DNA of 45,639 nt. Source: a virus. This document shows, piece after piece, positions 7,266-45,639 of this stretch. Under the pieces are notes generated by a model. It was given only the letters and a program-made list of their open reading frames with translations. It had not been told where the DNA came from and ran no database searches. The stretch is taken from positions 1-45,639 of IMG/VR virus record IMGVR_UViG_3300046376_000051, one strand, 5' to 3'. Both the position numbers and the translations under genes were made by a program. Position 1 is the stretch's first letter, and each line of letters opens with the position of its first letter.

Positions 7266-8406
7266 CGCGGGCCAAGAGTTTTTCTATCTCGACGACGACG
7301 GCACCAAGCAGGATGCCGAGCTGCACAACGCGATCCTGAACGCGGTCGATCAGCCGGTTGACGAAAAGATCATGGCTCCGATCCGCGAACGCAACCGCGC
7401 CAAGTGGCTGGCCGAGCAGAAGGCCGCGCAGAAAGAGGCCCGGCGCAAGAGCCAGTGGCAGCGCGCCAAAGCACGGGCGCAGGCACTACTGGAGAAGTTC
7501 AATCCGAACCATGAGCCGGGCGGCTCTCCGAGCGGCGGACAATTCTCCAGCGGAGGCGGATCAGGAGGCGGTGGCGACAGCAGCGGCAGCGAGGGCTCGT
7601 CCTCGCCGCACGCCAAAGATCCGACATCGGCGTCGTCGCTGTTGCGGATCGAGAAGAACGTCACGGTCAGCGATCTGCACGACAAGGTGCCGGGCTCGCG
7701 CGAACAGGATCTGATGGCGCGGTCGCGGCTGCGGACCAGCCACGAGACCGACAAGATGTACAAGCTGCCGAACGGACACTACGCGCCGGACCGGCTTCCG
7801 ACCCACCGCGCCATCGTCAACAAGCTGATGCCGGAATCACAGGTGGCAGCGGCGATCCCGAAGGCCGGTCAGCAGCCGGTGCTGCACATTCTCGGCGGCC
7901 GGGGCGGATCTGGCAAAGGCTGGTTCACCGGCAAGAACGGCACCATCGATCCGAAGACGGCGGTCTACATCAACAACGACGATGTCAAGGAAGAGCTGCC
8001 GGAATACAAGGGCTATAACGCCGGTCATGTCCACGAGGAAGCCAGCGACATCGCCGAGGGCATGGAGAAGTATGCGCGCGACAACAAGCTCAACGTCATC
8101 GTCGATGCCACGCTGAAGAGCGGGCCGTCACTGGCCAAGCGGATCGAGACCTACAAGGCGGCGGGCTACAAGATCCACGGGCACTATATGTACGCCTCGC
8201 CCGCCGAGGCCGCGACGCGGGCACTGGGCCGCTTCGTCGGCGGCAACGCCAAGAACGGCAAGGGCCGTTTTGTGCCGCCGGAATATTCGCTGTCCTCGAC
8301 CACGAACGAGCACACGTTCGACAGCCATCGCAAGGACATGGACTACTGGGAAGTGTACGACAACATGGGCTCCAGCCCGAAGTTGCATTCGCGCAAGGGC
8401 GACTGA
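7258..8406 (+). CDS. Zeta-toxin domain kinase with GSPxGGQF tag
   Basis: 382 residues from the ATG inside the end of the upstream gene. N-terminal third: a charged helix (KWLAEQKAAQKEARRKSQWQ), then the tag PGGSPSGGQFSSGGG and a Ser/Gly linker. C-terminal part: P-loop GGRGGSGKG (residues 213-221), a strand with NNDDVKEELPEY, then HEEASDIAEGM and VIVDATLKSGPSLAKRI, typical of zeta toxins. That family phosphorylates UDP-N-acetylglucosamine or related substrates and blocks wall synthesis. There is no epsilon-type antitoxin next to it. As the last gene of the packaging-side module it could be an injected effector (inference). Confidence 0.8.
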   Translation: MADAGQEFFYLDDDGTKQDAELHNAILNAVDQPVDEKIMAPIRERNRAKWLAEQKAAQKEARRKSQWQRAKARAQALLEKFNPNHEPGGSPSGGQFSSGGGSGGGGDSSGSEGSSSPHAKDPTSASSLLRIEKNVTVSDLHDKVPGSREQDLMARSRLRTSHETDKMYKLPNGHYAPDRLPTHRAIVNKLMPESQVAAAIPKAGQQPVLHILGGRGGSGKGWFTGKNGTIDPKTAVYINNDDVKEELPEYKGYNAGHVHEEASDIAEGMEKYARDNKLNVIVDATLKSGPSLAKRIETYKAAGYKIHGHYMYASPAEAATRALGRFVGGNAKNGKGRFVPPEYSLSSTTNEHTFDSHRKDMDYWEVYDNMGSSPKLHSRKGD

Positions 8407-8871: not shown

Positions 8872-8900
8872 CATATAGGCCGTTTTGTCCAAAATGACAA
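8872..8900 (-). promoter_or_regulatory. Promoter/operator copy 1 (degenerate)
   Basis: Read on the minus strand: -35 TTGTCA (8895-8900), 17-bp spacer, -10 TATATG (8872-8877). Only the -10-proximal operator arm (GGCCTATA) matches the repeated palindrome. The other arm is replaced by a TTTTGGACAAAA stretch. It serves the HTH gene and begins three bases after the stop of the immunity gene. Confidence 0.6.
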
Positions 8901-8902
8901 GA

Positions 8903-9190
8903 TCAGCCGACCGTGCCATCGGCGTTGCGCCGCACCACCGCCGTGTTGGCCCAGATCAATGCGGCAAACCAGCCAAGCACGGTCCAGCCGAAGGCGAGGT
9001 TAAGCACGACGATGGCCGGTTTCTGATGGTGGCCTCGATTCCACGCGACGATTGACGGCAAGAAGTAACCAGCGATGATCACGCCGATCAGGACAAGGCC
9101 CATGAAGGCATCCGCGCCCTCGTTGCCAGTTGACGCGAACGCCGGGGTTGCCGCCAGCAGTGCGGCGGCGATGAGTAGAGATCGTTTCAT
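8903..9190 (-). CDS. Superinfection immunity protein (T4 Imm-like)
   Basis: 95 residues. A signal-peptide-like N-terminus (KRSLLIAAALLAATPAFA) is followed by two membrane helices: about residues 30-50, ending GYFLPSIVAWNRGHH, and about 58-82, VLNLAFGWTVLGWFAALIWA. The YFLPSIVAW ... LNLAFGWTxLGWxxALIWA pattern is the hallmark of the Imm_superinfect family. T4 Imm sits in the inner membrane and blocks DNA entry of related phages. The periplasmic signal plus two helices suggests an N-out topology. Last gene of the unit headed by the gene at 11142. A short GGAG lies rather far (about 13 bases) upstream. Confidence 0.85.
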   Translation of the reverse strand: MKRSLLIAAALLAATPAFASTGNEGADAFMGLVLIGVIIAGYFLPSIVAWNRGHHQKPAIVVLNLAFGWTVLGWFAALIWANTAVVRRNADGTVG

Positions 9191-9204
9191 TGGTCTGGTG
9201 TTGC

Positions 9205-9281
9205 TCCTGTTTGTTGTTGTGAAGATCCGGAATGGCGCTTCGTTCTGCGCATCGTGATATGCGCAGCGGCGAAACGTCAGG
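9205..9281 (-). repeat. Duplicated intergenic hairpin element, copy A
   Basis: About 75 bp that recur almost intact at 10047-10120. On the minus strand it begins at the stop codon of the nuclease gene and runs to just before the next ribosome-binding site. It holds an 8-bp stem with a 6-base loop (CTGCGCAT at 9245-9252 pairing with ATGCGCAG at 9259-9266), flanked by an outer TTCG/CGAA pairing. There is no T-run, so it is not a classical terminator. mRNA processing, attenuation or coupling are possible roles. Confidence 0.75.
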
Positions 9282-10035
9282 CGGCCTTTGAGACCGGGTT
9301 AAATTTCAGCTCCATCTCGTATTCGATCAGGGTAACGCCCGGAATGCGAGACGCAGCCAGTTTCAAGTCCTCCGTGATTTCCTTCGCGATAATGATGCCG
9401 CGCACCGGCCGTGATGTTTCCATGTTCATATCGACCCATGCCATGTAGCGCGCCAATTGTCCGATGACGCGGTCGTAGCCGCGAGAGACCTTCAGCTCGA
9501 TCACCACGAGGCTGTCCTGCGCATCGAGTGCGAGAACGTCCATGCGACGTCCGCCTGCATCGGTCTCCAAGCCGGTGATTTCCTCGTTCTCGTAGAGGCG
9601 TAGGCCCGGCTCGACCAGATGAAGGTTCTTGGCGACAAAGTTCTGCAGATCGCGCTCATAGGCGAACTCGGCGAGCTGCTCGGCTTCGTTTGCGTCGTCC
9701 AGCCCTGCCGTCACAACAGCGATGACAGGATCGCCCTTGTAGGAGGGTGGTCCGTCCAGCTCGGGCTTCCAAAGCCGAAATTGATCCGGGCCAACTTTGT
9801 AAAACAGGTCGAAGCCGCGCCCCGGCTTGATGGTGGGATGACTCTGCCGGAATCTGGCATTGTTGATGCTCATGCCCTCGACGTGCATCGTCACCGTGTT
9901 GGGGCTGGTCTTGGGATAGTGCTGCTTGAACCAACGCACCGCGTCAAATTTGGAGAATATCTGATCGGGCTTGAGATGCTCATTTGCCCACTCCGTCAAA
10001 ATCGTCTTGGTCGGCCGGTCATAGATCGTCCTCAT
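9277..10035 (-). CDS. NucS-like PD-(D/E)XK endonuclease
   Basis: 252 residues. The C-terminal half is the NucS (DUF91-like) nuclease core: ERDLQNFVAKNLHLVEPGL, then GGRRMDVLALDAQDSLVVIELKVSRG, giving the catalytic Asp (MDV) and Glu-x-Lys (IELK), then IGQLARYMAWVDMN. The N-terminal about 100 residues (TEWANEHLKPDQIFSKFDAV...) look like a small DNA-binding or winged-helix-like domain that often precedes restriction-type nucleases. NucS proteins cut at mismatches or branched DNA. Here a role in degrading host or competitor DNA, or in repair, is possible. No methylase partner is adjacent, so a restriction-modification system is unlikely. Confidence 0.75.
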   Translation of the reverse strand: MRTIYDRPTKTILTEWANEHLKPDQIFSKFDAVRWFKQHYPKTSPNTVTMHVEGMSINNARFRQSHPTIKPGRGFDLFYKVGPDQFRLWKPELDGPPSYKGDPVIAVVTAGLDDANEAEQLAEFAYERDLQNFVAKNLHLVEPGLRLYENEEITGLETDAGGRRMDVLALDAQDSLVVIELKVSRGYDRVIGQLARYMAWVDMNMETSRPVRGIIIAKEITEDLKLAASRIPGVTLIEYEMELKFNPVSKAA

Positions 10036-10046
10036 TTCGGACTCGT

Positions 10047-10120
10047 CTCCTTTGTTGTGAAGTTACCGGGATTGGCGCTTCGGATTGCGCACCGTGATGC
10101 GCAGGGTCGAAACGTCAGGC
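10047..10120 (-). repeat. Duplicated intergenic hairpin element, copy B
   Basis: Second copy of the element at 9205-9281. It again starts at a stop codon (of the GIY-YIG-like gene) and ends before the next ribosome-binding site. The stem is shorter (TGCGCA at 10086-10091 with TGCGCA at 10098-10103) around the related loop CCGTGA. The outer TTCG/CGAA pairing is kept. Conservation of both stems, with loop and length changes between copies, suggests selection on the RNA fold. Confidence 0.75.
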
Positions 10121-10612
10121 GATGGTCATTTGCTGATCGCCGACATAGACTTCGATCTGGCGCGGCGGACCGTCGTCCGTTAAATCGCTGCAATAGGCCT
10201 TGATGGCGGGCGCATTGATCTCGGTGCCAGCCTGATAAGTGAAGCGGGCGACCTTGTTGGCGAAGTCGTATTCCTGCGTCAGCAATCCGGTTTCTATCGT
10301 TGCGCGCTGCGCTTCCATCAGGGCGCGGAGAAATTTTCCGCCACCCGTTTTGGTATTCCAGCCGATATGCCGTTGCTTGCGATGCTCCCATTCCAACTTC
10401 GCAGCTTCGAAGCGGGTGAGGTTTTCGGCCAGAACCGTGAAGATGTGTCCGGCAGGGAAGCGCCTATTATCTCTGTGCTCCTTCTGCCGGTTCTTGCGGT
10501 ATGTGATGCCGACATAGCCTTGCGTAAATGGATCGGTGTGCTCCGGGAGATGGAGCCAGTACACGCTGTGGATCGGCTGCGAGTCCGATGGCTTTGGATT
10601 CTGCATCGACAT
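10115..10612 (-). CDS. GIY-YIG-like nuclease domain protein
   Basis: 165 residues. SVYWLHLPEHTD ... QGYVGITYRKNRQKEHR matches the start of the GIY-YIG fold: a Y-W/L strand, then GYVGIT as the YIG strand, then Arg and Glu-His in the following helix. A further helix AAKLEWEHRKQRHIGWN could supply the acidic metal ligand. This family cuts DNA in homing, restriction and repair enzymes. The C-terminal half is unassigned. The ATG overlaps the upstream stop (TGATG). It is co-transcribed with the NucS-like gene, giving two nucleases in one unit. Confidence 0.6.
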   Translation of the reverse strand: MSMQNPKPSDSQPIHSVYWLHLPEHTDPFTQGYVGITYRKNRQKEHRDNRRFPAGHIFTVLAENLTRFEAAKLEWEHRKQRHIGWNTKTGGGKFLRALMEAQRATIETGLLTQEYDFANKVARFTYQAGTEINAPAIKAYCSDLTDDGPPRQIEVYVGDQQMTIA

Positions 10613-11142
10613 CACGCCACCTTGCGCGCGACCGCTTCTGCGACCGCACTCTCGATATTGGCGCGGTAGCGGTTGCGGCCTTCCTCGACCGACATCCAGC
10701 GCCAGTCGTCGCCATTGCCGTTGCGCTTGATCCGCTCGACCGCGAAGGACAGCTTCAGCGACTTGGCGAAAGCCATGAACTTGTCGCCGGGCTCGCGGGC
10801 TTCGTCCTTCTCGACTCGCGTCTTGACGCGCTTGAGCGCCTTGAGCATGCCGTGCAGCTTGCGCTCGCCAGCGGAATGCACGTCGCGAAATTCGACATCG
10901 TAGGCGATGAAGGATGGTTCGGCGGTCTCGCTGATGAAGCCGTACATGCCGAGACCATCGACCACGAGGCCGAGCAGATGTTTCGGCGTGCCGTAGCCGA
11001 GGAAATTGTCGCCATCGCTGGGACATCCCACCGGGTGTTCGTATCGATCCTCGCGGCGCGCGACGCGCACCTCGACATATTCGGTGCCGTAGCGGTTGAC
11101 CCGCTCGATCAGCAGGCCGTATTGGTCGTCAGGTTTAGTCAC
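10612..11142 (-). CDS. Hypothetical protein (176 aa)
   Basis: Starts at a GTG with AGGAG five bases upstream. Begins with TKPDDQYGLLIERVNRYG and has a central hydrophobic region (HLLGLVVDGLGMYGFISET) and a charged helical C-terminal half rich in Lys/Arg/Glu. No family recognised. First gene of the unit that continues into the GIY-YIG-like protein, the NucS-like nuclease and the immunity protein. Confidence 0.65.
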   Translation of the reverse strand: MTKPDDQYGLLIERVNRYGTEYVEVRVARREDRYEHPVGCPSDGDNFLGYGTPKHLLGLVVDGLGMYGFISETAEPSFIAYDVEFRDVHSAGERKLHGMLKALKRVKTRVEKDEAREPGDKFMAFAKSLKLSFAVERIKRNGNGDDWRWMSVEEGRNRYRANIESAVAEAVARKVA

Positions 11143-11175
11143 TGGGGCTCCTTTTCAGCCGTTTGCTTACACTCT

Positions 11176-11204
11176 ATAGATAGGTCATTTTGACCTACAG
11201 CCAA
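11176..11204 (-). promoter_or_regulatory. Promoter/operator copy 2 (divergent)
   Basis: The palindrome TAGGTCA-TTT-TGACCTA (11181-11197) is a perfect 7-bp inverted repeat and clearly related to the others, but GGCC is changed to GGTC/GACC. On the minus strand the -35 is TTGGCT (11199-11204). The -10 region is shifted by a 2-bp insertion (CTATAGATAGG in place of CTATATAGG on the plus strand). It precedes the 176-residue gene. Confidence 0.55.
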
Positions 11205-11213
11205 GATGGCATA

Positions 11214-11651
11214 TCAATTCAGACCAAACTCGCGCATCAATTTCGCTCTTTCAGCAGGGTTGTCCCTCAATTCCTTCCCTCGCTTATAAGATGTCCGTAG
11301 CTGCTGCTTGACTTGCTCCTTGGACATCTCGGAGTGGCATAGTGTTTGATCGATAAACGAAGCAGTGGCTCGCCAGTCCATCTTGTTCATGTACGGATCA
11401 AGTCGATTGAGTTCCTCACCGAAGTCAGCCATCTCTTGCTTTTCGGTCGCTGACCATGTGGGGGAGTTGAGATCCCAAGTCTTACCGTTGGCGTTCATGT
11501 TGCCATGGCATCTGATCACTGCTTGCGATTGAGCCACTTCCGGACTCTTCGTTGGTCCCGAGCTGTTCGGGCTAAACACTCCGCCGATGAGGATGAATGC
11601 GATCAGCCCGATCCACACGAGCTGGCCGAGTTCTTTCTGGTTTCGTGTCAT
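11214..11651 (-). CDS. Membrane-anchored hypothetical protein (145 aa)
   Basis: One N-terminal hydrophobic helix (about residues 8-26, LGQLVWIGLIAFILIGGVF) is followed by a soluble domain with two Cys (VIRCHGNMN and TLCHSEM) that could form a disulfide if exported. The C-terminus is charged and helical (RGKELRDNPAERAKLMREF). AGGAGA lies seven bases upstream of the ATG. It is a single-gene unit under promoter copy 3. It looks like an inner-membrane protein facing the periplasm. No family recognised. Confidence 0.65.
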   Translation of the reverse strand: MTRNQKELGQLVWIGLIAFILIGGVFSPNSSGPTKSPEVAQSQAVIRCHGNMNANGKTWDLNSPTWSATEKQEMADFGEELNRLDPYMNKMDWRATASFIDQTLCHSEMSKEQVKQQLRTSYKRGKELRDNPAERAKLMREFGLN

Positions 11652-11697
11652 ATTATGGTCTCCTGTTTAAGGCGCGCGGAATGCGCTCTTCACTCTC

Positions 11698-11726
11698 TAT
11701 ATAGGCCATTATGGCCTATATGTCAA
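11698..11726 (-). promoter_or_regulatory. Promoter/operator copy 3 (best match)
   Basis: Minus strand: -35 TTGACA (11721-11726), 17-bp spacer, -10 TATATA (11698-11703), a near-consensus sigma-70 promoter. The palindrome spans 11699-11721 with 11-base arms (ATATAGGCCAT / ATGGCCTATAT) around one base. The leader to the gene at 11651 is about 40 bases. Confidence 0.85.
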
Positions 11727-11748
11727 TAGGACGTATCAAGAGAATATT

Positions 11749-12375
11749 TTAGTGGCCCCATGAATAATACTGAGGCTGGTAGACCGGGACGCCAGCGACC
11801 ATCGTGGGCTTGCAGCGCGAGGCCCAGCGCACGCTGCAGATCCGGACGCCGCCCTCTTGGGCCAGTCGCCGTATCGGCAGGCCTTGGTCATCGCCTTCGA
11901 ATCGGGGAGCCAGATACTGGCCGGGCATCGGCACGCACTTGCCCTGATCGTGGCCGGTCGGAACCGTCTCCTGCGCGATCTCGCGCAAAATGACGTGCTT
12001 GCCCTTCACCTCGACCACTTCGAAATATTCGATGTTGGTCTGGTCGTAACCCCAATGGGTCTTGAGCAGCTCGCCGACCTTGTAGTCCGGCACCCACGCG
12101 ACCCGCTTGGCCTTGCGCTCATCCTTGAAGGCGAGCGACTTGCGGCGGCTCACGAAAGCATCGGCAACGGCAGCGTTGCGCCGGGCCTCGTCGCGATAGA
12201 TGTAATTGAAAACCGGCTTGGCCTGCTTGCCGTAGAACACCGCCGCGCCGACCTTGCCAGCGTTCTTGGCGCTGCGTGCGGAGTAGAGATAGGCGACCGC
12301 GTCGGACTGCTTGTCGGTGACCTTGGTCGCGCCCTTCGGGGTGTAAAATTCGCGGGTGAATTTCAGGCGGCGCAT
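11749..12375 (-). CDS. Hypothetical protein (208 aa)
   Basis: A basic N-terminus (MRRLKFTREFYTPKGATKV), an Ala-rich helix (AVAYLYSARSAKNAGKVGAAVFYG), then a basic segment (RRKSLAFKDERKAKRV). A beta-rich C-terminal domain follows with YFEVVEVKGKHVILREI and the end YQPQYYSWGH. AGGAGAT lies about 14 bases upstream, at the end of the preceding gene. I do not recognise it. It is the second gene of the copy 4 unit. Confidence 0.6.
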   Translation of the reverse strand: MRRLKFTREFYTPKGATKVTDKQSDAVAYLYSARSAKNAGKVGAAVFYGKQAKPVFNYIYRDEARRNAAVADAFVSRRKSLAFKDERKAKRVAWVPDYKVGELLKTHWGYDQTNIEYFEVVEVKGKHVILREIAQETVPTGHDQGKCVPMPGQYLAPRFEGDDQGLPIRRLAQEGGVRICSVRWASRCKPTMVAGVPVYQPQYYSWGH

Positions 12376-12377
12376 AA

Positions 12378-12839
12378 TTACTGGGGATCTCCTGTTTTGT
12401 AGAAGGCCTTGCGGGCCTCCGCTAATCCAACGGTCAGCGGATCGCCGCTGTTGCGGTTGGCCTCATAGGCGACCTTGGCGGCGACCCATCGGCTGAACAT
12501 CTCGCGACCGGCTTCCGGCACCGCCTCGCCGAACTTCTCGGCCCATGCCTTGGCTTCCGCGCCGCCCGAATATTCGTTCAAGCCCGACCACTGCACGTGC
12601 TCGTTTTCGTCGAGGAACATCGCGCCGCCGATCAGCGCGTAGGTCGAAGCCTTCGGCTTGTTCCAGACTTCGCCGGGCCGCTTCGGGTTGGTGGTTTGCG
12701 AGACAAACCGAAAGCCCTTCTTGGCCTTGTACTCGATCCAGTAACGGATCTTGCAGCGCAGCCGAAAACCGTAGGGATAATCCGCGACCACGTAGGCGGT
12801 CTCGGGGGAAGTGTGGCCAGAAAGCAATTTCAAAATCAT
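12378..12839 (-). CDS. Hypothetical protein (about 150-158 aa), start uncertain
   Basis: The body is clear: YGFRLRCKIRYWIEYKAKKGFRFVS, then TYALIGGAMFLDENEHVQWSG, then Ala/Glu-rich helices to the end. No family known. The start is unclear. The ATG at 12854 lies only four bases after the -10 box, too close for the transcript. The ATG at 12839 sits directly on GAGGAG. A TTG at 12833 has GAGGAG at the ideal six-base spacing. I list the middle choice. Confidence 0.6.
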   Translation of the reverse strand: MILKLLSGHTSPETAYVVADYPYGFRLRCKIRYWIEYKAKKGFRFVSQTTNPKRPGEVWNKPKASTYALIGGAMFLDENEHVQWSGLNEYSGGAEAKAWAEKFGEAVPEAGREMFSRWVAAKVAYEANRNSGDPLTVGLAEARKAFYKTGDPQ

Positions 12840-12858
12840 CTCCTCTGTTTGCATTCTC

Positions 12859-12887
12859 TATATAGGCCGTTTCGGCCTATACGTCAA
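12859..12887 (-). promoter_or_regulatory. Promoter/operator copy 4
   Basis: Minus strand: -35 TTGACG (12882-12887), 17-bp spacer, -10 TATATA (12859-12864). Palindrome TATAGGCCG-TTT-CGGCCTATA at 12861-12881 is perfect, with 9-bp arms. The TGA inside the -35 box is the stop codon of the upstream gene (12884-12886). Confidence 0.85.
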
Positions 12888-13108
12888 GTGGTCGTAACAG
12901 GATCTTCCAGCAGCTCGCCGAACAGGTGAGCCAGCGGAACGCCATCGACTTGGATCTTGCCGATGCCGTCGCCGGACACCGCGTAATAGCTGCCCATTTC
13001 GGGGTTCTTGCCGATCCGCTCCTGCGCGTATTTCCGCGCGCCCTTCAGGGTCTTGAACGACTTCGATTTGCGGTAGCCATCGACGGACGAGTAGAAAACT
13101 TTGATCAT
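12884..13108 (-). CDS. Small hypothetical protein (74 aa)
   Basis: A basic N-terminal half (IKVFYSSVDGYRKSKSFKTLKGARKYAQERIG) folds as strand-helix. The C-terminal half is acidic and ends LFGELLEDPVTTT. The layout recalls small substrate- or DNA-binding host-takeover proteins, but no family is identified. GGAGG lies upstream at the end of the preceding 25-codon gene. Its stop codon is part of the next promoter's -35 box. Confidence 0.6.
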   Translation of the reverse strand: MIKVFYSSVDGYRKSKSFKTLKGARKYAQERIGKNPEMGSYYAVSGDGIGKIQVDGVPLAHLFGELLEDPVTTT

Positions 13109-13112
13109 TGGA

Positions 13113-13190
13113 TCAGGCCTCCTGCGGGGCCGCGCCTTGGAAAAAGGCCGCGACCAGATAGTTGAGGAATTTGTTGATGAGCTTGGCCAT
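13113..13190 (-). CDS. Micro protein (25 aa)
   Basis: The ATG overlaps the TAA of the upstream gene (13190-13192) by one base. The product is an amphipathic, mostly hydrophobic helix (MAKLINKFLNYLVAAFFQG) with a short Ala/Pro tail. It ends five bases before the next gene, and its last codons supply that gene's GGAGG site. It may be a membrane-active micro protein or simply a translational coupler. Confidence 0.45.
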   Translation of the reverse strand: MAKLINKFLNYLVAAFFQGAAPQEA

Positions 13191-13366
13191 TAGTGCAGAA
13201 CCTCTTTTGCGGGGACGTGGTGGGGGTTGGCGACGAACACGCCTTCAAGAAACAGCCACTCGACTTCCGGGCATTCGGCACCGGCCTTGAGGGCGAACTC
13301 AGCGACCAGCCCGACCGGGGCGGCGTTGTGAGCGGGTTCACCGTAGGATTCATAGAACAGGGGCAC
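13190..13366 (-). CDS. Small hypothetical protein (58 aa)
   Basis: Starts at a GTG with AAGGA seven bases upstream. An in-frame ATG at 13396 lies inside the promoter and is rejected. Begins VPLFYESYGEP and has an acidic helical middle (AEFALKAGAECPEVEWLFLEG), ending VPAKEVLH. No family recognised. First gene of the copy 5 unit of three genes. Confidence 0.6.
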   Translation of the reverse strand: MPLFYESYGEPAHNAAPVGLVAEFALKAGAECPEVEWLFLEGVFVANPHHVPAKEVLH

Positions 13367-13393
13367 TTGTCGTTCCTTTCTCTCTTCACTCTT

Positions 13394-13422
13394 CATATAG
13401 GCCGTTCTGGCCTATACGACAA
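13394..13422 (-). promoter_or_regulatory. Promoter/operator copy 5
   Basis: Minus strand: -35 TTGTCG (13417-13422), 17-bp spacer, -10 TATATG (13394-13399). Palindrome TATAGGCCG-TTC-TGGCCTATA at 13396-13416. GACCACT precedes the -35, as in copies 4 and 6. The leader after the -10 (GAAGAGTGAAGAG) resembles those of copies 3 and 7. Confidence 0.8.
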
Positions 13423-13437
13423 GTGGTCATGTTCGAA

Positions 13438-13746
13438 TTATTTAGCAAGCAAGGCGTCGATTTCGTCCAGCTCAGCGATGTTCACTTCGGGGTTCCGGAA
13501 CTCGGCAGGGGCCGCCTTGTAGGCGAGCCAGCCAGCTTCGTTCAGCCGGATCGAAGCGTCCTTGCCTTCGTCCATGACGCTCACGAGGCCCTTCTTGCTC
13601 AGCGAGGCGACCACGCCAGAGAAGGTCTTCTTGCTGGCGAACGGGTTGGCGCTCCACGTCCAGACCCAGCGGCCGACCGCGCCCTCGCCGTATTCCGAGG
13701 AGACGATCCCCTCGATGGCGCGGCATTCGTTTTTGGTTAACTTCAC
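13438..13746 (-). CDS. Winged-helix-like protein (102 aa)
   Basis: Starts at a GTG (VKLTKNECRAIEG). The longer reading from 13794 would begin close to the -10 box and is disfavoured. The layout helix (KNECRAIEGIVSSEY), helix (SKKTFSGVVASLSKKGLVSV) and charged wing (DEGKDASIRLNEAG) matches a small winged-helix protein of the kind seen in transcription factors. The tail (NIAELDEIDALLAK) is acidic. It is alone under promoter copy 6. It could be a second DNA-binding regulator of the island. The start of helix one is uncertain. Confidence 0.6.
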   Translation of the reverse strand: MKLTKNECRAIEGIVSSEYGEGAVGRWVWTWSANPFASKKTFSGVVASLSKKGLVSVMDEGKDASIRLNEAGWLAYKAAPAEFRNPEVNIAELDEIDALLAK

Positions 13747-13798
13747 GGGTGGGGTTCCCTTTCTTCCGGGTCCGGGCCATCCCCGAACCAACAAGATA

Positions 13799-13827
13799 TA
13801 TATAGGCCATAACGGCCTATATGTCCA
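13799..13827 (-). promoter_or_regulatory. Promoter/operator copy 6
   Basis: Minus strand: -35 TGGACA (13822-13827), 17-bp spacer, -10 TATATA (13799-13804), inside a longer TATATATA run. Palindrome arms TATAGGCC and GGCCTATA (13801-13821) surround an asymmetric ATAAC centre. The leader to the GTG at 13746 is about 45 bases. Confidence 0.8.
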
Positions 13828-13853
13828 GTGGTCATATGTCGCAGCTTGGTGAT

Positions 13854-14351
13854 TTAGACGGCGAGGCGGGAACTCAGTTCCGCGACAAGTTCCGGATGGC
13901 CGTGGCTCAGAACCTTGAGTTCCTCGCGCATTTCCGGGAGGTACATCGCGGCGAACTCGGGGGCGAGTTCCTCGACGTTGCTGGAGTTGTCCAGCTCGTC
14001 GCTCAGCTTGATGGACGCGCCGAAATAAGACGCCTTGGCCAGATGCTCCCTGAAGGCCGCCTTACGGGCCGCACGGTTGCCGGGGACGATTGGCTTCGTC
14101 ACCTCCAGCACCAGCGCCGCGACTTCGGGACCGAACTCGGCGGCGATCTCCGGGCCGCTGACGGGCGTATCCTCGACCACGTCGTGCAGATAGGCCGCAG
14201 CAACAACTTCGGCCGGGAAGCCCATCGCGGCCAACCGGGCGGCGACGCGCTCCGGATGCCTGATGTAGGGCTCGCCCGACCACTTACGGAAGACTCCGGC
14301 GTGCGCCTTCTCGGCGAACGCATGGGCCTTCCTGACTAATAGGGGTTCCAT
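13854..14351 (-). CDS. HD-domain (p)ppGpp hydrolase-like protein
   Basis: 165 residues, the size of small alarmone hydrolases (MESH1/SpoT hydrolase domain). The signatures are in order: GEPYIRHPERVA (H32), YLHDVVEDTP (H56-D57 with E60-D61) and IKLSDELDNSSN (D118, in the place of SpoT KLADRLHN). The HDxxED motif is specific to the SpoT/MESH1 group among HD proteins and suggests Mn-dependent removal of the 3'-diphosphate of (p)ppGpp. No synthetase or TGS domain is present. GGAGG precedes the ATG by nine bases. Alone under promoter copy 7. A role in holding down the stringent response or an alarmone-linked defence is inferred. Confidence 0.8.
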   Translation of the reverse strand: MEPLLVRKAHAFAEKAHAGVFRKWSGEPYIRHPERVAARLAAMGFPAEVVAAAYLHDVVEDTPVSGPEIAAEFGPEVAALVLEVTKPIVPGNRAARKAAFREHLAKASYFGASIKLSDELDNSSNVEELAPEFAAMYLPEMREELKVLSHGHPELVAELSSRLAV

Positions 14352-14376
14352 AACCCGCTACCTCCTTTCTTCACTC

Positions 14377-14405
14377 AATATAGGCCATTACGGCCTATAT
14401 GTCAA
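14377..14405 (-). promoter_or_regulatory. Promoter/operator copy 7
   Basis: Minus strand: -35 TTGACA (14400-14405), 17-bp spacer, -10 TATATT (14377-14382). Palindrome arms TATAGGCC and GGCCTATA at 14379-14399. The TGA of the -35 box is the stop codon of the upstream gene (14402-14404), exactly as in copy 4. Confidence 0.85.
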
Positions 14406-14563
14406 CTAGACGTATTGTCATTTCGTGCGTCTGGCGATGTTGCGGGCTGGGCGGGCTTCAGAAACAGCGCCGCAATTTCGGTCAATTGCTGGAGCGCATG
14501 CTCCAGAATTTCCAGCTCCTCGATCCGGTCGCGGATCGCGTCGGCCTCGTCGCGCTCGGTCAT
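14402..14563 (-). CDS. Small coiled-coil protein (53 aa)
   Basis: Begins MTERDEADAIRDRIEELEIL, with heptad-like Leu/Ile spacing through EHALQQLTEIAALFL, then a Pro-rich, polar tail. The ATG overlaps the upstream stop (ATGA). The gene ends within the -35 box of promoter copy 7. Likely a short oligomerising helix. No family recognised. Confidence 0.55.
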   Translation of the reverse strand: MTERDEADAIRDRIEELEILEHALQQLTEIAALFLKPAQPATSPDARNDNTSS

Positions 14564-14772
14564 GGTAGTTGCCGGGGCCAGAACTCGCGGGCGGTCTCGG
14601 CCCAGTCCTTGGCTTTCGCCAGCGTGTCGGCGAAACCGTATTGCTTGCCGTGCTGCCAGAGGAATCCCTGCGGCGTCGGCTTGAGGCGAACGAAACAGTC
14701 CGGCTTGCCGGGGATATGCTCATAGCCGTTGCGATACGGTTGCCAGTTGTGGGTCATGCGGTCAGTCGCCAT
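14560..14772 (-). CDS. Small hypothetical protein (70 aa)
   Basis: GAGGAGAT lies five to six bases before the ATG, inside the end of the preceding gene (11-base overlap). Contains THNWQPYRNGYEHIPGKPD and an aromatic, basic middle (FLWQHGKQYGFADTLAKAKDWAE). Tight overlaps on both sides support it. A shorter start at 14757 is possible. Function unknown. Confidence 0.6.
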   Translation of the reverse strand: MATDRMTHNWQPYRNGYEHIPGKPDCFVRLKPTPQGFLWQHGKQYGFADTLAKAKDWAETAREFWPRQLP

Positions 14773-15025
14773 CGTTGATCTCCTCGCTCTTCCACGCGGC
14801 GCAGGGGTAGCGGTTGCCGCCGAGACTAGAGCCGCACACTTCGCAGGGTTGCCACGAGAAATACTCCTCGCTGTTTTCGTCGCCCGCGACGCAGACGTGA
14901 TAGCCCTTCCACTTGCGTTCGACCGCTTCCGGGGTCCAACCGCTGGTGTTCTCTTCAGGCAGCTCGCCATTGGCGAGGTACATGATGCAATCGGTGCATC
15001 CGGCCAGTTCGATGATGTCGGTCAT
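14762..15025 (-). CDS. Cys-rich zinc-ribbon-like protein (87 aa)
   Basis: Two Cys pairs, GCTDCIMYL near residue 10 and QPCEVCGSS near residue 62, with a further Cys later (YPCAAW). The spacing suggests a zinc ribbon or zinc-binding knuckle. The region between is acidic and Trp-rich (SGWTPEAVERKWKGY). AAAGGA precedes the ATG. First gene of the copy 8 unit. Small zinc-ribbon proteins in phages often bind host polymerases, nucleases or DNA, but no such role is shown here. Confidence 0.6.
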   Translation of the reverse strand: MTDIIELAGCTDCIMYLANGELPEENTSGWTPEAVERKWKGYHVCVAGDENSEEYFSWQPCEVCGSSLGGNRYPCAAWKSEEINDGD

Positions 15026-15044
15026 TCGTTTTCCTTTCCCGATA

Positions 15045-15073
15045 CATATAGGCCGTTATGGCCTATATGGCAA
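15045..15073 (-). promoter_or_regulatory. Promoter/operator copy 8
   Basis: Minus strand: -35 TTGCCA (15068-15073), 17-bp spacer, -10 TATATG (15045-15050). Palindrome arms TATAGGCC and GGCCTATA at 15047-15067, with centre GTTAT. The leader is the shortest of the set, about 15 bases to the ATG at 15025. Confidence 0.8.
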
Positions 15074-15091
15074 GGGGTCGTATTCTCTTTC

Positions 15092-15709
15092 TTATGCTTC
15101 GACCGTCGCGCCTTCCAGCAACCGCGCGCTGACGCCGCACAGCATGCCGTTCTCGGCGCGGAATACCGTGCTCATGCCTTTCCGGCCGCGCAGGCGGCAC
15201 ACTTCGACCGTGAAGCGCTGGCATTTGACGCCGCCCCAGTTGCCGGGCTCAGCCAGCGTCACCTTGTTGCCGGGCTTCAGCTTCCGCTTTAGCGCCTTGT
15301 TGGCAGCGGCCTTGGCGGAGCCCTCGCGGTAATTGCGGGCTGACGTGAGGCTCGACCATTCAGGCTGCGGGCCAATCGGATCTTGCAGCTCAGAGCACTG
15401 CGCGATGATCGACATCGGAGCGGGGCAACCATACGGCCCCATGCCTTCCTCCATGTCCTTGTAACCGAAATTGTACTGGTCCTTCGGGCGCACGTTGATC
15501 TTGAACACCAGCAGCGCGCGGATGTTGCCGTCCGCGTCGGGGACATAGACCTTGCTGTCCGGCTCGTTGAATTGCGCCACGATGAACACCGCCTCGCGGG
15601 TTGCCGTCGCTGCCACGAAACGCTTGGCGAGCCACTCGGCACCCATCTCGTTCTTGATCGCGTCAACGGCCTTGACGCCCTTCGGCTTGTAAAAATAAGT
15701 CCAACCCAC
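15092..15709 (-). CDS. Hypothetical protein (205 aa), MGWT-start family
   Basis: Begins GWTYFYKPKGVKAVDAIKNE from a GTG with AGGAGA nine bases upstream. MGWT(Y/F) starts are typical of a phage/plasmid family annotated as DUF6927-like; I make that link with limited certainty. The middle is strand-rich (AVFIVAQFNEPDSKVYVPDADG), with SIIAQCSELQ, then a basic Ala/Lys helix (AAANKALKRKLKPGNKVTL) and a C-terminal beta segment (CQRFTVEVCRLRGRKGM). Third gene behind promoter copy 9. Confidence 0.6.
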   Translation of the reverse strand: MGWTYFYKPKGVKAVDAIKNEMGAEWLAKRFVAATATREAVFIVAQFNEPDSKVYVPDADGNIRALLVFKINVRPKDQYNFGYKDMEEGMGPYGCPAPMSIIAQCSELQDPIGPQPEWSSLTSARNYREGSAKAAANKALKRKLKPGNKVTLAEPGNWGGVKCQRFTVEVCRLRGRKGMSTVFRAENGMLCGVSARLLEGATVEA

Positions 15710-15729
15710 TTTCGATTCTCTCCTGTTGT

Positions 15730-15936
15730 TTAGATGCTACTGGGGATCACGCCGGGGAACGCGGCGACAATTTCCTTCAGCCGCTCGTCGGGATTACCGG
15801 CTGCAATCGCCGCTTTCAGCGCGTTAGAGATTTGCGGGATTGACATCATCGGGATTTGAAACCCGGTGATCGCGCGCTGAATGCGCTTGTCGATAGCCAG
15901 CTCCGCCAGTTTCTTTGCACTCAACTTCTTAGCCAC
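15730..15936 (-). CDS. Small hypothetical protein (68 aa)
   Basis: Chosen start is a GTG (VAKKLSAKKLAELAIDK), with GGAAA upstream. It has an amphipathic basic helix, a short hydrophobic stretch (TGFQIPMMSIPQIS) and a second helix (LKAAIAAGNPDERLKEIVAAF). No family recognised. It lies about 20 bases before the MGWT-type gene, in the copy 9 unit. Confidence 0.55.
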   Translation of the reverse strand: MAKKLSAKKLAELAIDKRIQRAITGFQIPMMSIPQISNALKAAIAAGNPDERLKEIVAAFPGVIPSSI

Positions 15937-15995
15937 TTCCGTTTTTCCTTTCTGAGGGGCGCAGCCCAATGCCGCGCCCGGTTGATCTCGCCGGA

Positions 15996-16454
15996 TTAGT
16001 CCATCCGGCTGGAGGCGTAGATCCGGAGCTTGCTGTCGGCCAGCTCCTCGTTCAGCACCTTGGCCATGGCGTTGGCGCACGCTTCCTTTCGTTCCTTCGA
16101 TTGGTTGAAGGCCGAAATGTTGATCTCGACGCCGCCGTAGTAGCTCTTCCGCGCCAGCTTGTTTTTCATCAGCCACTTCGCGAACGATGAGTTGCCCGGT
16201 CCAACCTTGACCCACGCGAAACCGCAAACGCCTTCCGGCACATGCCACATCGCTTTCGGCACGCTGTAGCCCTTGGCGAGCGGATCTGAGGGCTCGACCA
16301 CCATCATGGCCCGAGGCTTGGCCGCTTCACCGGCCGCACGACCGGCCGCCGAGGCCTTGGCGAACGCCGCTTCAAACGCGGCATACTTGGCCTGCCGGGC
16401 AACCTTTTCCGCCGCGATCTTCTCGCGGAGGGAACCGTATTCAGAGACTTGCAC
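15996..16454 (-). CDS. Hypothetical protein (152 aa)
   Basis: GTG start with AGGAG seven bases upstream. The first 45 residues form one long Ala-rich helix (KIAAEKVARQAKYAAFEAAF...), probably coiled coil. A compact alpha/beta region follows (YSVPKAMWHVPEGVCGFAWVK, NSSFAKWLMKNKL, YYGGVEINISAFNQS) and a helix (ACANAMAKVLNEELADSK). I do not recognise the family. First gene of the copy 9 unit. Confidence 0.6.
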   Translation of the reverse strand: MQVSEYGSLREKIAAEKVARQAKYAAFEAAFAKASAAGRAAGEAAKPRAMMVVEPSDPLAKGYSVPKAMWHVPEGVCGFAWVKVGPGNSSFAKWLMKNKLARKSYYGGVEINISAFNQSKERKEACANAMAKVLNEELADSKLRIYASSRMD

Positions 16455-16498
16455 TTGGAACTCCTTTCCAACGGGAACACCGCGTTCCCAACATCATT

Positions 16499-16527
16499 AA
16501 TATAGGCCGTTTCGGCCTATACGACCA
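16499..16527 (-). promoter_or_regulatory. Promoter/operator copy 9
   Basis: Minus strand: -35 TGGTCG (16522-16527), the weakest -35 of copies 3-10, then a 17-bp spacer and -10 TATATT (16499-16504). The palindrome is perfect, TATAGGCCG-TTT-CGGCCTATA at 16501-16521, identical to copy 4. Confidence 0.75.
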
Positions 16528-16546
16528 TAGGTCATAATGTCGCGGT

Positions 16547-16621
16547 TTAGTTCGCGTAGTAGGCGGCGATGAAAAAGGTAACGCAGCTCGCGATGACGAT
16601 GCCGCACAGGATCGTCGTCAT
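16547..16621 (-). CDS. Micro membrane protein (24 aa)
   Basis: The ATG overlaps the upstream stop (ATGA). It encodes MTTILCGIVIASCVTFFIA followed by AYYAN, i.e. one transmembrane helix and almost nothing else. Last gene of the copy 10 unit. It fits the many phage single-helix peptides with regulatory or membrane roles. Confidence 0.5.
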   Translation of the reverse strand: MTTILCGIVIASCVTFFIAAYYAN

Positions 16622-16824
16622 GGCGTGACCGCCATGCAGGAGGCCGAGATTTTCAGCGAGATCTTGCGACCGCCGATGACCGGCGATTCCTGCGGGGCCT
16701 TGTAGAGCTGCTCGACCGCCTGAATGCAGGACCGCTCGCTGGGCCAGTCGGTATGGTCGGTGACCAGCGCGATGCTGCCGGTATCGGACACCGCGATGAC
16801 CGAGGCGATCAGTCGCCAGATCAT
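16618..16824 (-). CDS. Small exported-looking protein (68 aa)
   Basis: AGGAGG lies eight bases before the ATG. The first 20 residues (MIWRLIASVIAVSDTGSIAL) are weakly signal-peptide-like. The rest is polar with two Cys (RSCIQAVEQLY and SASCMAVTP) that could pair in the periplasm. No family recognised. Coupled to the following micro membrane gene. Confidence 0.55.
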   Translation of the reverse strand: MIWRLIASVIAVSDTGSIALVTDHTDWPSERSCIQAVEQLYKAPQESPVIGGRKISLKISASCMAVTP

Positions 16825-16827
16825 TTT

Positions 16828-17007
16828 TTAGTCCTCCTCGATGGGCTCGTCGGCCCAGTAATTGGGCTCGCGCAGAACGTCGGCGCGATAGCCCTTCATC
16901 TTCTTGGCGTGGCACTTCGAACAGGTCCGGCACAGCGGGATGCCGCGCGCGTCGTTCTGCCAATAGCTGTCGCGGCCAGAGCCGCAGGGGCAGGGGCGCG
17001 CTTTCAT
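16828..17007 (-). CDS. Small zinc-ribbon-like protein (59 aa)
   Basis: Begins MKARPCPCGSGRDSYW and has PLCRTCSKCHAKKMKGY: a CxC pair and a CxxCxxC set 18 residues apart, a good zinc-ribbon layout. PCPCGSG resembles the SEC-C metal-binding motif. The acidic end (WADEPIEED) follows. The ATG overlaps the upstream stop (TGATG). Second gene of the copy 10 unit. Confidence 0.65.
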   Translation of the reverse strand: MKARPCPCGSGRDSYWQNDARGIPLCRTCSKCHAKKMKGYRADVLREPNYWADEPIEED

Positions 17008-17210
17008 CACGCGACCGCCTTCATCTCGTTGCCGACGATGGCGTAGTTCACCGGCTCGTCGCTCTCGACCACGCGGGTCTCGCGCACCGCCGTCCAGCGC
17101 ATCGCCAGATTCGCGACCGAAATCTCGGCCTCTTCCTTGGTGGCAAAGCGCAGTGCGTTTCCGCACCACTTGCCGCTGCTGTCGGCGATCACTTCGGGCT
17201 TCCAAGACAT
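17007..17210 (-). CDS. Small hypothetical protein (67 aa)
   Basis: Begins MSWKPEVIADSSGKWCGNALRF, then TKEEAEISVANLAMRWTAVRETRVV. This strand-helix-strand protein resembles short uncharacterised proteins common in rhizobial genomes and prophages, where the N-terminal strand, a Trp and EAxxxAxxL helix recur. AAGGA precedes the ATG. First gene of the rightmost island unit, about 25 bases from the promoter. Confidence 0.65.
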   Translation of the reverse strand: MSWKPEVIADSSGKWCGNALRFATKEEAEISVANLAMRWTAVRETRVVESDEPVNYAIVGNEMKAVA

Positions 17211-17239
17211 CTCAATTCCTTTCCTCTGTTGACATCATC

Positions 17240-17268
17240 TATATAGGTCATTTCGGCCTATACGTCAA
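17240..17268 (-). promoter_or_regulatory. Promoter/operator copy 10 (rightmost)
   Basis: Minus strand: -35 TTGACG (17263-17268), 17-bp spacer, -10 TATATA (17240-17245). The palindrome at 17242-17262 has one altered arm (TATAGGTCA against CGGCCTATA), an intermediate between copies 2 and 4. It lies between the island and the plus-strand capsid gene. I see no clear promoter for the capsid gene in the about 55 bases between. Confidence 0.8.
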
Positions 17269-17323
17269 GTGGCCATATCAATTATTTTGATGTCGCCAGC
17301 CCACTGAAAACGTGGAGGTTTTC

Positions 17324-19432
17324 ATGAAGCACCTGAAAAAAGATGACGGTGACGGCGACATCGACATCTCGCCAGATGACGATGAGACCGAAGAAGATTT
17401 CATGGAGCGCTGTCTCGACGCGACCAACGGCGACGACTTCACCTGTCAACTGGCGTGGGACAACCGCAAGGCCAAAGCCGTCGTCCACAAGACGCACGTC
17501 TCGCCGGGCCACGGGCTGGAATTCATTTTGTCGGACGCGACGCCGGACCGCATGGGCGACGTGATCGACGCCGAGGGCTGGGATCTGGAAAATTTCAAGA
17601 AGAACCCGGTCGCGCTGTTCAACCACAACGCCAATTTCCCGATTGGCAAATGGACCAACCTCCGGACCGCTGACGGCAAACTGCGCGGCCATCTGCAACT
17701 CGCGCCGGAAGGCACCTCCGAGCGGATCGACGAGATCCGGCGGCTGGTCGATGCCGACATCCTGCGCGCGGTGAGCGTCGGCTTTCTGCCGATCCAGACC
17801 GAGCCGCTGACCAAGGGCGGCGGCGGCTCGCGCTTTCTCAGGTCCGAACTGGTCGAGTCCTCACTGGTCGCGATTCCAGCCAACCCGAATGCACTCGCGG
17901 TCGCCAGATCGCTCAACATTTCCGCGTCCACCACCGCAATGGTCTTTGCCGGGCAAGGCAACACAAAAGACCGGAACGTCGGGCGGCGCGGTTTCAACGG
18001 CGGGCAAGCCGAAAATCCTCCTGTACGAAAGAACAGGATCATGTCCCCCCTCACGAAGAGAATTACCGAAAGCGAGCAGCGGCTCGTCCAGTTGCGCGAT
18101 GATCTGACTGCGCATCTGGAAACCGTTGACGACGAGAACGTCAGCGATGCCGATCTCGCAACTACGCAGGAACTGAACAAGAAGATTGCCGATCAGGAAG
18201 CGCTGTACGCTTCGCTGAAGGAATCCGAGATCAAGCTGGCGAAGACCAGCGGTGACGGCAACGGCGCTTCGACGCACACCGTCATCACCAAGACCGGCGA
18301 ACGTCGGCCGTTCACGCTCAAGCCGAAGACCATGGAGCCGCTTGAGTTTCTGGTCCGCGCTGGAACGGTCCGCGCGCTGTCGCGCTCGATGGGCATCTCC
18401 ATCGACGAGGCTCGCGTCAAGGCCTATGGCGACGACGAGGCCACCAAGATGGTCTGCGATCTGACCCTGAAGAACGCGGTGTCCCCGGCGATGACCACGG
18501 TCACCGGCTGGGCCGCCGAACTGGTGCAGCAAATCGTCACCGAGCTGATGCCGACGTTGCTGCCGTCTTCGGTCTTCCCGTCGCTGTCGGCGATGGGGCT
18601 GAAGCTCAGCTTCGGCCGCAATGGGCGGATCATCATCCCGACCCGCAACGTGACGCCAACCGTTGCCGGATCGTTCGTTGGTGAAGGTCAGCCGATTCCG
18701 GTCCGCATGGCGGGGTTCTCCAGCCAGACGCTGACGCCGAAGAAGATGGCCGTGATCTCGACTTGGACGCGGGAAATGGATGAGCATTCCATTCCGGCGA
18801 TTGAGGGCCTGCTTCGCGAGGCGATCCAGCAGGACACGGCGATCTCCATCGACACGGTCCTGCTCGACATCAACCCGGCGACGGCGATCCGTCCCGCCGG
18901 TCTCCGCAACGGCGTCGCGGGTCTGACGCCGACCGCAGGCGGCGGCTTCAACGCCCTCGTCGGCGATCTGAAGCAACTGACCGGCGCGATCCTGACCGCG
19001 ACCAACGGCAACATCCGCAACATGGTCTGGATCATGAACCCGCAACAGGCTCTGAGCATTGCGTTCATCCAGCCTCCGGTGCCGGGCGGGCTGTTCCCGT
19101 TCGCGGCGGAAATCAACGCTGGTCGCCTGAACGGTCGTCCGGTGATCCAGTCGGGCACGGTGCCGGTTGGCGTCGTGATCTGCATGGACGCTGCGGACTA
19201 CGTTTCGGTGGCGGGCGATGCGCCGCGATTCGAGATCTCGGATCAAGCCACGCTGCACATGGAAGACACGGCTCCGCAGATGCTCGCTGCGGCTGGCACG
19301 CCGCCGACCATCGCGGCTCCCGCGCAGAGCATGTTCCAGACCGACAGTCTGGCGCTGCGGTTGATCCTCCCGCTCAACTGGACCGTCCGGCGCGCAGGCG
19401 TCGTGTCGTGGGTCGCCGGGGTTACGTGGTGA
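17324..19432 (+). CDS. Fused HK97-type prohead protease and major capsid protein
   Basis: 702 residues from an ATG with GGAGG five bases upstream. Residues about 40-205 are the S78 prohead protease, with catalytic His in FNHNANFPIGKW (H101) and Ser in RAVSVGFLP (S151). A linker (about 206-239) leads to a coiled-coil delta domain (about 240-310) and the HK97 capsid fold, with SFVGEGQPIPVR and a C-terminus ending in WVAGVTW. The protease normally cuts the delta domain from the capsid. An internal ATG (18041, residue 240) with AGGA nearby could make capsid alone. Separate genes are usual. Confidence 0.9.
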   Translation: MKHLKKDDGDGDIDISPDDDETEEDFMERCLDATNGDDFTCQLAWDNRKAKAVVHKTHVSPGHGLEFILSDATPDRMGDVIDAEGWDLENFKKNPVALFNHNANFPIGKWTNLRTADGKLRGHLQLAPEGTSERIDEIRRLVDADILRAVSVGFLPIQTEPLTKGGGGSRFLRSELVESSLVAIPANPNALAVARSLNISASTTAMVFAGQGNTKDRNVGRRGFNGGQAENPPVRKNRIMSPLTKRITESEQRLVQLRDDLTAHLETVDDENVSDADLATTQELNKKIADQEALYASLKESEIKLAKTSGDGNGASTHTVITKTGERRPFTLKPKTMEPLEFLVRAGTVRALSRSMGISIDEARVKAYGDDEATKMVCDLTLKNAVSPAMTTVTGWAAELVQQIVTELMPTLLPSSVFPSLSAMGLKLSFGRNGRIIIPTRNVTPTVAGSFVGEGQPIPVRMAGFSSQTLTPKKMAVISTWTREMDEHSIPAIEGLLREAIQQDTAISIDTVLLDINPATAIRPAGLRNGVAGLTPTAGGGFNALVGDLKQLTGAILTATNGNIRNMVWIMNPQQALSIAFIQPPVPGGLFPFAAEINAGRLNGRPVIQSGTVPVGVVICMDAADYVSVAGDAPRFEISDQATLHMEDTAPQMLAAAGTPPTIAAPAQSMFQTDSLALRLILPLNWTVRRAGVVSWVAGVTW

Positions 19433-25446: not shown

Positions 25447-25529
25447 GAAGGCAACTCAACTTTCAAAAAAGGAAACCCGTGGATCGCAGCGCGCCCGATG
25501 GCGTGGTCTGCAAATGAGGAGTCATGACC

Positions 25530-45264: not shown

Positions 45265-45639
45265 TCAGAACTGGTCCTGCACACGGCTGTAGGCCGGATG
45301 CCTGCGGTTCTTGACCTTGACCCAGTGGGTGCAGCGGCCGACGCGATAGGCGCGCTCGCGGTGTTTCGACACCAGTCCCTCCAGACCCATGCGGCAGGCG
45401 GCTTCGAACAGCTCTGGGCCGATCTCGCCCTGCTCAAACGGCGCGATGAAGATTCCTTCCGCATGTCCGCGCAGCAGCCGCGCAAGATTGGTTTTGCGCA
45501 TTGATAGCGGCAGCTTGCGGTGGTCGTCGCCGTCTCCCGCCAGCATGTCGAAAGCGTAGAGCTGCACCTCGTGGTCATACTTTCGCGACTGCAGCGCATT
45601 GAAGTCGGAGACGCCATCGACCCCAAGCACCACGGCTTC
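45265..45639 (-). CDS. ATP-dependent DNA ligase, C-terminal part (truncated by window edge)
   Basis: The reading frame continues past the right edge; only the last 124 codons are in the window. AVVLGVDGVSDFNALQSR, then VQLYAFDMLAGDG, GLEGLVSKHRERAYRVG and HWVKVKNRRHPAY match the nucleotidyltransferase core of LigD/ATP-dependent DNA ligases. GLEGLVSK is motif IV and WVKVKN motif V (catalytic Lys of motif I is outside the window). It stops well before an OB domain, as in small rhizobial stand-alone ligases. It may be the host flank or a phage ligase. Confidence 0.85.
   Translation of the reverse strand, partial: EAVVLGVDGVSDFNALQSRKYDHEVQLYAFDMLAGDGDDHRKLPLSMRKTNLARLLRGHAEGIFIAPFEQGEIGPELFEAACRMGLEGLVSKHRERAYRVGRCTHWVKVKNRRHPAYSRVQDQF

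Follow-up and report, generated by a model that had tools for sequence, protein, structure and literature searches.

Aca2 and Aca10 are autorepressors whose inverted repeats, often two of them, overlap the -35 and -10 boxes of the promoter through which they regulate themselves (PMC8434428, PMC9410906, PMC9410881). Here, we describe a leftward small-gene island at 8.4-17.3 kb of a 45.6-kb virus record (IMG/VR record IMGVR_UViG_3300046376_000051, 45,639 nt, analysed at its full length and hereafter called the window), which is likely an early phage-encoded regulon under an Aca-like autorepressor, the small helix-turn-helix (HTH) protein P1. Judging from sequence, P1 would bind and repress a promoter-operator module found in ten copies. 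With the Aca2 and Aca10 systems, this one shares a small HTH protein of the dimer type, carried by phages and mobile elements, as well as inverted repeats within the core promoter and a predicted site at the protein's own promoter. It differs from them in that the known Aca proteins control one acr-aca operon, whereas a single protein here appears to control about ten promoters, and in that the P1 gene has a separate, weaker site. Moreover, no acr was recognised: comparison of the island genes with Pfam and, for some of them, with PHROGs revealed no known one, no search having been aimed at acr genes in particular.

Three other systems call for comparison. Phage SPbeta is said to have a master repressor, MrpR, with repeated promoter-linked elements (SPBRE); MrpR, compared by description only, is a different protein from P1. 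For Aca8 and archaeal viruses, a published passage describes one promoter-plus-regulatory consensus that precedes numerous small early genes and whose common repressor is proposed to be a small HTH protein, but the promoters are of the TATA/BRE type and the passage mentions neither operator-protein covariation nor a second paralogue with its own operator (PMC11065993). Finally, the stoperators of cluster A mycobacteriophages are many copies of a repressor site scattered across the phage genome (PMC6550527, PMC9283540), but they are described there as asymmetric, bound by a monomeric repressor and halting elongation (PMC9283540), whereas the sites described below are palindromes inside promoters.

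All ten modules lie on the minus strand, face left within 8872-17268 and were checked base by base, which bears out the ten same-facing copies reported by the initial annotation. Copies 3 to 10 combine a -35 box TTGACR, or a variant of it differing by one or two bases, with a spacer of exactly 17 bp (true of all eight, as had been claimed) and a -10 box TATATA/G/T, and begin 22-55 bp ahead of an open reading frame (ORF). Their spacer is filled by the palindrome TATAGGCC-N5-GGCCTATA, exact in seven copies and one-off in one, which runs into the -10 box; allowing up to three mismatches, it has nine matches in the window (seven exact, one with one mismatch, one with three) against 0.02 expected from dinucleotide shuffles. 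This operator, O1, is best written 6-5-6, as TAGGCC-N5-GGCCTA, with a centre that is mostly R-NNN-Y. The eight regular copies are copy 3 (11698-11726, TTGACA-N17-TATATA, palindrome at 11700, O1 core 11702-11718), copy 4 (12859-12887, TTGACG-N17-TATATA, palindrome at 12861, core 12863-12879), copy 5 (13394-13422, TTGTCG-N17-TATATG, palindrome at 13396, core 13398-13414), copy 6 (13799-13827, TGGACA-N17-TATATA, palindrome at 13801, core 13803-13819), copy 7 (14377-14405, TTGACA-N17-TATATT, palindrome at 14379, core 14381-14397), copy 8 (15045-15073, TTGCCA-N17-TATATG, palindrome at 15047, core 15049-15065), copy 9 (16499-16527, TGGTCG-N17-TATATT, palindrome at 16501, core 16503-16519) and copy 10 (17240-17268, TTGACG-N17-TATATA, palindrome at 17242, core 17244-17260). 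Copies 1 and 2 had been called degenerate. For copy 2 (11177-11204, minus strand), this holds for the weak promoter (TTGGCT, 16 bp, TATCTA) but not for the operator, whose core at 11181-11197 is a perfect palindrome (TAGGTC-AAAAT-GACCTA). Copy 1 (8872-8900, minus strand), the HTH gene's own promoter (TTGTCA-N17-TATATG), is indeed half-degenerate (TTGGAC-AAAAC-GGCCTA), but it belongs to a distinct type of site: an imperfect inverted repeat, roughly TTGnCA...GGACARAAYGRCCTATAT, that recurs before the HTH gene in most relatives.

Relatives (labelled G or L) were collected by an exact palindrome scan of IMG/VR, which returned ten stretches, to which terminase neighbours added more; their gene calls come from a simple codon-usage finder. 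Most module-bearing contigs carry 6-12 sites per record (at most three mismatches). The initial annotation had recommended such a search together with a weight matrix, and sites re-derived genome by genome amount to 76 cleaned ones from 11 phages (the window and ten relatives), which are mutually related and hence not independent. Their consensus, aTAYGWCCnC-TTGACA-TATAGGCCRnAnYGGCC-TATAT, stands in most cases 22-55 bp ahead of the first ORF and contains the promoter hexamers: with cTTGAC 17 bp from CTATAT, it matches the alphaproteobacterial sigma70 motif, given as CTTGAC-N17-CTATAT for Sinorhizobium and other rhizobia (PMC2873474). At 14 bits or more, over both strands and registers, a preliminary weight matrix, shifted by one base, finds 226 matches in real sequences and 0 in shuffled ones, a comparison that shows only an excess over chance. 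The sites are palindromic and all but one of the 76 coincide with the start of a gene on their own strand or precede it by no more than 140 bp, whereas stoperator-type sites would be asymmetric and also occur off promoters. At the centre of O1, 52 sites read G-NNN-T or A-NNN-C against 15 with the symmetric G..C or A..T, which gives the sites a concealed polarity that occurs in both orientations.

It had been stated beforehand that, if the modules form a regulon, relatives keeping the genes should keep the module, and they do. The module lies 24-28 bp upstream of the gene for a small alarmone ((p)ppGpp) hydrolase-like HD protein (13854-14351, minus strand; Pfam HD_4, with PDB matches to RelA/SpoT, down to 2e-16, and to MESH1) in 9 of the 10 phages having that gene, and 23-55 bp upstream of the most constant regulon member, a gene of unknown function at 15996-16454 (minus strand), in 11 of 11; another gene of unknown function, after copy 4 (12378-12833, minus strand), has it 28-36 bp upstream in 4 of 5. 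G017 and G018 are devoid of nearly all island genes and of the TAGGCC module. At least 317 IMG/VR stretches encode relatives of the 15996-16454 protein, most of the distant ones examined being without this module, while no match was found among cultured phages. The best reference for the group is G001 (IMGVR_UViG_3300036846_000738, also L111-L114; 76.6 kb), whose direct terminal repeat and integrase (PF00589) indicate a probably complete temperate phage. A search of the open-access literature returned no description of this regulon.

The candidate regulator, proposed by the initial annotation, is the 84-aa P1 (P0001; 8599-8853, minus strand), with the recognition helix GSRTARRW (Arg32), and the proposal is strengthened on several counts: P1 homologues occur in nearly all module-bearing contigs, the gene has its own variant site, and the operator class tracks residue 32 (see below). 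These homologues were found with a nine-sequence alignment, since a single-protein scan of IMG/VR gave one relative and a 16-sequence alignment was too diverse. AlphaFold models P1 confidently as a four-helix HTH (about residues 1-50, pLDDT about 92), for which Foldseek returns HigA2, MqsA, Aca2 and Aca10; it superposes on Aca2 at 1.0 Å over 54 columns (TM 0.60) and on Aca10 at 1.1 Å over 51, with a best E-value of 0.012, a resemblance at the level of the fold only. At the sequence level, neither PDB profile searches (E 0.005-0.014 for Aca2, 0.02-0.03 for Aca10) nor Pfam, where hits fell below the cut-off, linked P1 significantly to any named Aca family, so that P1 may be said to work like an Aca rather than to be one. 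In a blind test over 84,980 bacterial and archaeal species genomes, only two module matches emerged (L109 and L110); in each, a gene of the P1 family lies no more than about 150 bp away, and two operators overlap at a distance of 17 bp. The bacterial genome of L110 also has repeated GTGCGCTAACACCGGGG-like stretches between the small genes beside its module (240-880). Among cultured phages, the sole P1 match is the Bradyrhizobium phage ppBeUSDA76-2 (OP596614; prophage of Bradyrhizobium elkanii USDA 76), where TAGGGC-CACTT-GCCCTA (TAGGGCCACTTGCCCTA) lies over an upstream -35 box; plasmids gave none. G031 apart, the matches of a class-wide search with A1 were for the most part other XRE-like proteins, and a palindrome search in the G031 family revealed no further carrier among 103 genomes. 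In the ppBeUSDA76-2 prophage, as in G017 and G018, a promoter of this kind is followed first by small genes and then by the HTH gene.

The operator class covaries with residue 32 of the recognition helix: Arg with TAGGNC, Gln with TAYGNC and Asn with GGGAC. In a profile alignment, Arg32 of P1 falls on Aca10 Gln37 and Aca2 Gln33, which have been identified as DNA-reading residues (PMC9410881). By chance, no more than 0.2 sites of any one class would be expected in a contig; TAGGNC-N5-GNCCTA is found in 15 of 20 Arg32 contigs, the remainder being partial. The phages with Gln32 only (G024, L170 and L172) have TAYGNC and lack TAGGNC, and those with Asn32 (G017 and G018) have GGGAC-N5-GTCCC and neither other class. 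These GGGAC palindromes sit in the promoter of the HTH operon, and in G017 the different palindrome keeps the same geometry, filling the 17-bp spacer (TTGAAA-TAGGGACAAAAAGTCCC-TATCTT). The published Aca10 operator (ATACGCTCATTGAGCGTAT) fits the series: it also reads 6-5-6, its arms are of the TACG class (TACGCT), and Aca10 Gln37 stands at the position of the Gln class here.

Besides O1, the promoters contain a second operator. The GACCACT stretch noted by the initial annotation upstream of the -35 box is indeed conserved, but it belongs to this operator, O2 (TAYGWC-N5-GACRTA), which is centred 17 bp upstream of O1 over the -35 box, part of which its right arm includes. O2 is present at 8 of the 9 scored modules of the window; in copies 3 to 10, it lies at about 11719-11735, 12880-12896, 13415-13431, 13820-13836 (TATGAC-CACTG-GACATA), 14398-14414, 15066-15082, 16520-16536 (TATGAC-CTATG-GTCGTA) and 17261-17277, respectively, and the -35 box of copy 9 (TGGTCG) deviates from the consensus toward the O2 symmetry. 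Three genomes encode a Gln32-type HTH paralogue, P2, just ahead of a common downstream gene family (G001 at 5510, G005 at 45018, G016 at 21451), and in these the O2 left arm matches at five or more of six positions in 10 of 10, 5 of 7 and 10 of 10 sites, respectively (25 of 27 in total). In G015, the P2 slot is occupied by another small gene and O2 is found at 0 of 10 promoters, while P1 and O1 are kept; G422 (77 kb), with one HTH protein and no P2, has 13 TAGG-type sites, no clear TAYG-type site and one mixed site. The two operator classes occur in swapped order at one promoter of G016, near 26585. Most likely, then, O2 is the site of P2 in the relatives that carry it, and a second related protein probably helps P1 in many of these phages. 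By a modest margin over even odds, we favour a two-key regulon, in which two interlocked operators, spaced by 17 bp within the early promoters, would be divided between Aca-like paralogues that differ in one recognition residue, Arg32 or Gln32, the loss of a repressor letting its operator erode at every promoter. The initial annotation had missed O2, P2 and the correspondence between residue and operator, as well as the resemblance to Aca proteins and the nature of copy 1 as the HTH gene's own, differently built promoter.

Several observations weigh against this picture. P2 is not seen in the window, although O2 is frequent there; as the window appears to be a fragment, this may be due to missing sequence, and we predict P2 in the missing part of the genome. 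L152 and L150, also fragments, have O2-like sites yet P1 only. The O2 arm pairs are complementary in 316 of 532 cases (permutation z 4.3, a value inflated because the sites are related) and are thus less regular than those of O1, and the comparison of P2 with O2 rests on five genomes. As for P1 itself, no HTH protein was found in G002, a 37-kb record with modules, and no operator was seen in five Arg-type contigs, all of them partial stretches. A tentative alternative, clearly less probable than a P2 site, is that O2 is a second P1 site, the two forming tandem cooperative operators: a TAGG-class site does occupy the O2 position in G006, G007, L109, L110 and G422, which show P1 only or no P2, and where only the Gln type is encoded, both positions are of the TACG class. 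However, O2 is of the Gln class in the P2 phages, unlike O1, and G015 has P1 and O1 with no O2 at any of its ten promoters.

It is less likely still that the protein binding O1 is not P1 but, for instance, a CI-like lysogeny repressor, in which case the island would be a prophage immunity regulon similar to stoperators or SPBRE and not an Aca-like shut-off. Many-operator regulons under master repressors are known (PMC6550527), the probably complete G001 encodes an integrase and G005 carries other HTH proteins, but the operator class tracks residue 32 of the P1 family, the promoters of the P1 genes themselves include a form of the operator, and in the small loci of bacteria and prophages the operator accompanies P1, no CI-like gene being seen adjoining. 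MerR operators lie in promoter spacers, as O1 does, and a protein bound there might activate instead of repressing; this is very improbable, given that the spacer has the optimal 17 bp rather than 19-20, that the hexamers are near consensus, that the fold is XRE-like and not MerR, and that O2 covers the -35 box itself. Finally, a palindrome acting as an RNA hairpin or processing site, with an incidental promoter match, could fold on read-through from an upstream operon but is scarcely credible in view of the hexamer geometry over 76 sites, the distance to start codons and the covariation with a DNA-reading residue.

Under the preferred reading of an Aca-like regulon, binding, dimerisation, repression and timing are deduced from the geometry and the Aca precedent (PMC8434428, PMC9410906). 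The hexamers being near consensus, the promoters should fire on entry, when there is no repressor. A P1 dimer would then sit on O1, cover the spacer and the -10 box and thereby keep RNA polymerase off the ten promoters simultaneously, while a second dimer on O2, in most of these phages, would cover the -35 box. The weaker, half-degenerate site of copy 1 would let P1 accumulate, restrain its own gene and then close the whole set; as the P2 gene belongs to runs that modules precede (G001, G005 and G016), it should be under equal control. The outcome would be a burst of expression upon entry followed by shut-off, as with Aca proteins on acr operons.

The gene run after copy 2 includes a superinfection-immunity-like membrane protein (PF14373; 8903-9190, minus strand) and a protein with DUF7669 and NucS-like nuclease domains (9277-10035, minus strand), while Pfam gives almost nothing for the first genes of the regulon in relatives. 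Together with the alarmone hydrolase and many unknowns, these genes are compatible with a role in host takeover or counter-defence but do not prove one. Among the longer leaders (16452-16498 in the window; also in G001, G002, G003, G006, G009, G015 and G016), many form a short hairpin, GGGAACGCGGTGTTCCC or GGGACCGCGGTAGTCGCGGTTCC in type, that starts some 5 nt after the presumed transcript start. Leaders of the short kind (about 27 nt) are too small to accommodate it. The hairpin could serve to stabilise the 5' end or add another layer of control.

The window belongs to a tailed, contractile phage of soil type, for which TerL and capsid searches of cultured phages returned distant relatives only. 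The island stands between the rightward terminase side (terminase at 716-2266), from which a Zeta-toxin domain protein (7258-8406, plus strand) separates it, and the fused protease/capsid gene (17312-19432), followed by the portal (19805-21250) and the sheath (25524-27104); no integrase was seen in the window. Within the island, an intergenic element of about 55 bp with an inverted repeat occurs twice (9229-9283 and 10069-10121, 83-92% alike), with copies also in G002. At the extreme end of the record, a partial ATP-dependent DNA ligase domain (45265-45639, minus strand), whose protein is 100% identical to the end of G002, is either phage-borne or the host flank of a prophage.

If this reading is true, Aca-style control is not confined to single acr operons but reaches early regulons spanning a whole bacterial phage. 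The correspondence between residue and operator would be a natural code for DNA recognition by proteins, offering swaps that can be used in experiments and allowing operators to be predicted from protein sequence across these phages. The regulon would also serve as bait for phage anti-host genes, the tag TTGACR-TATAGGCC-N5-GGCCTATA and its class variants marking candidate host-takeover or counter-defence genes in poorly known soil and rhizobial phages; it already points to the alarmone hydrolase, one of the two genes most constant right after the module.

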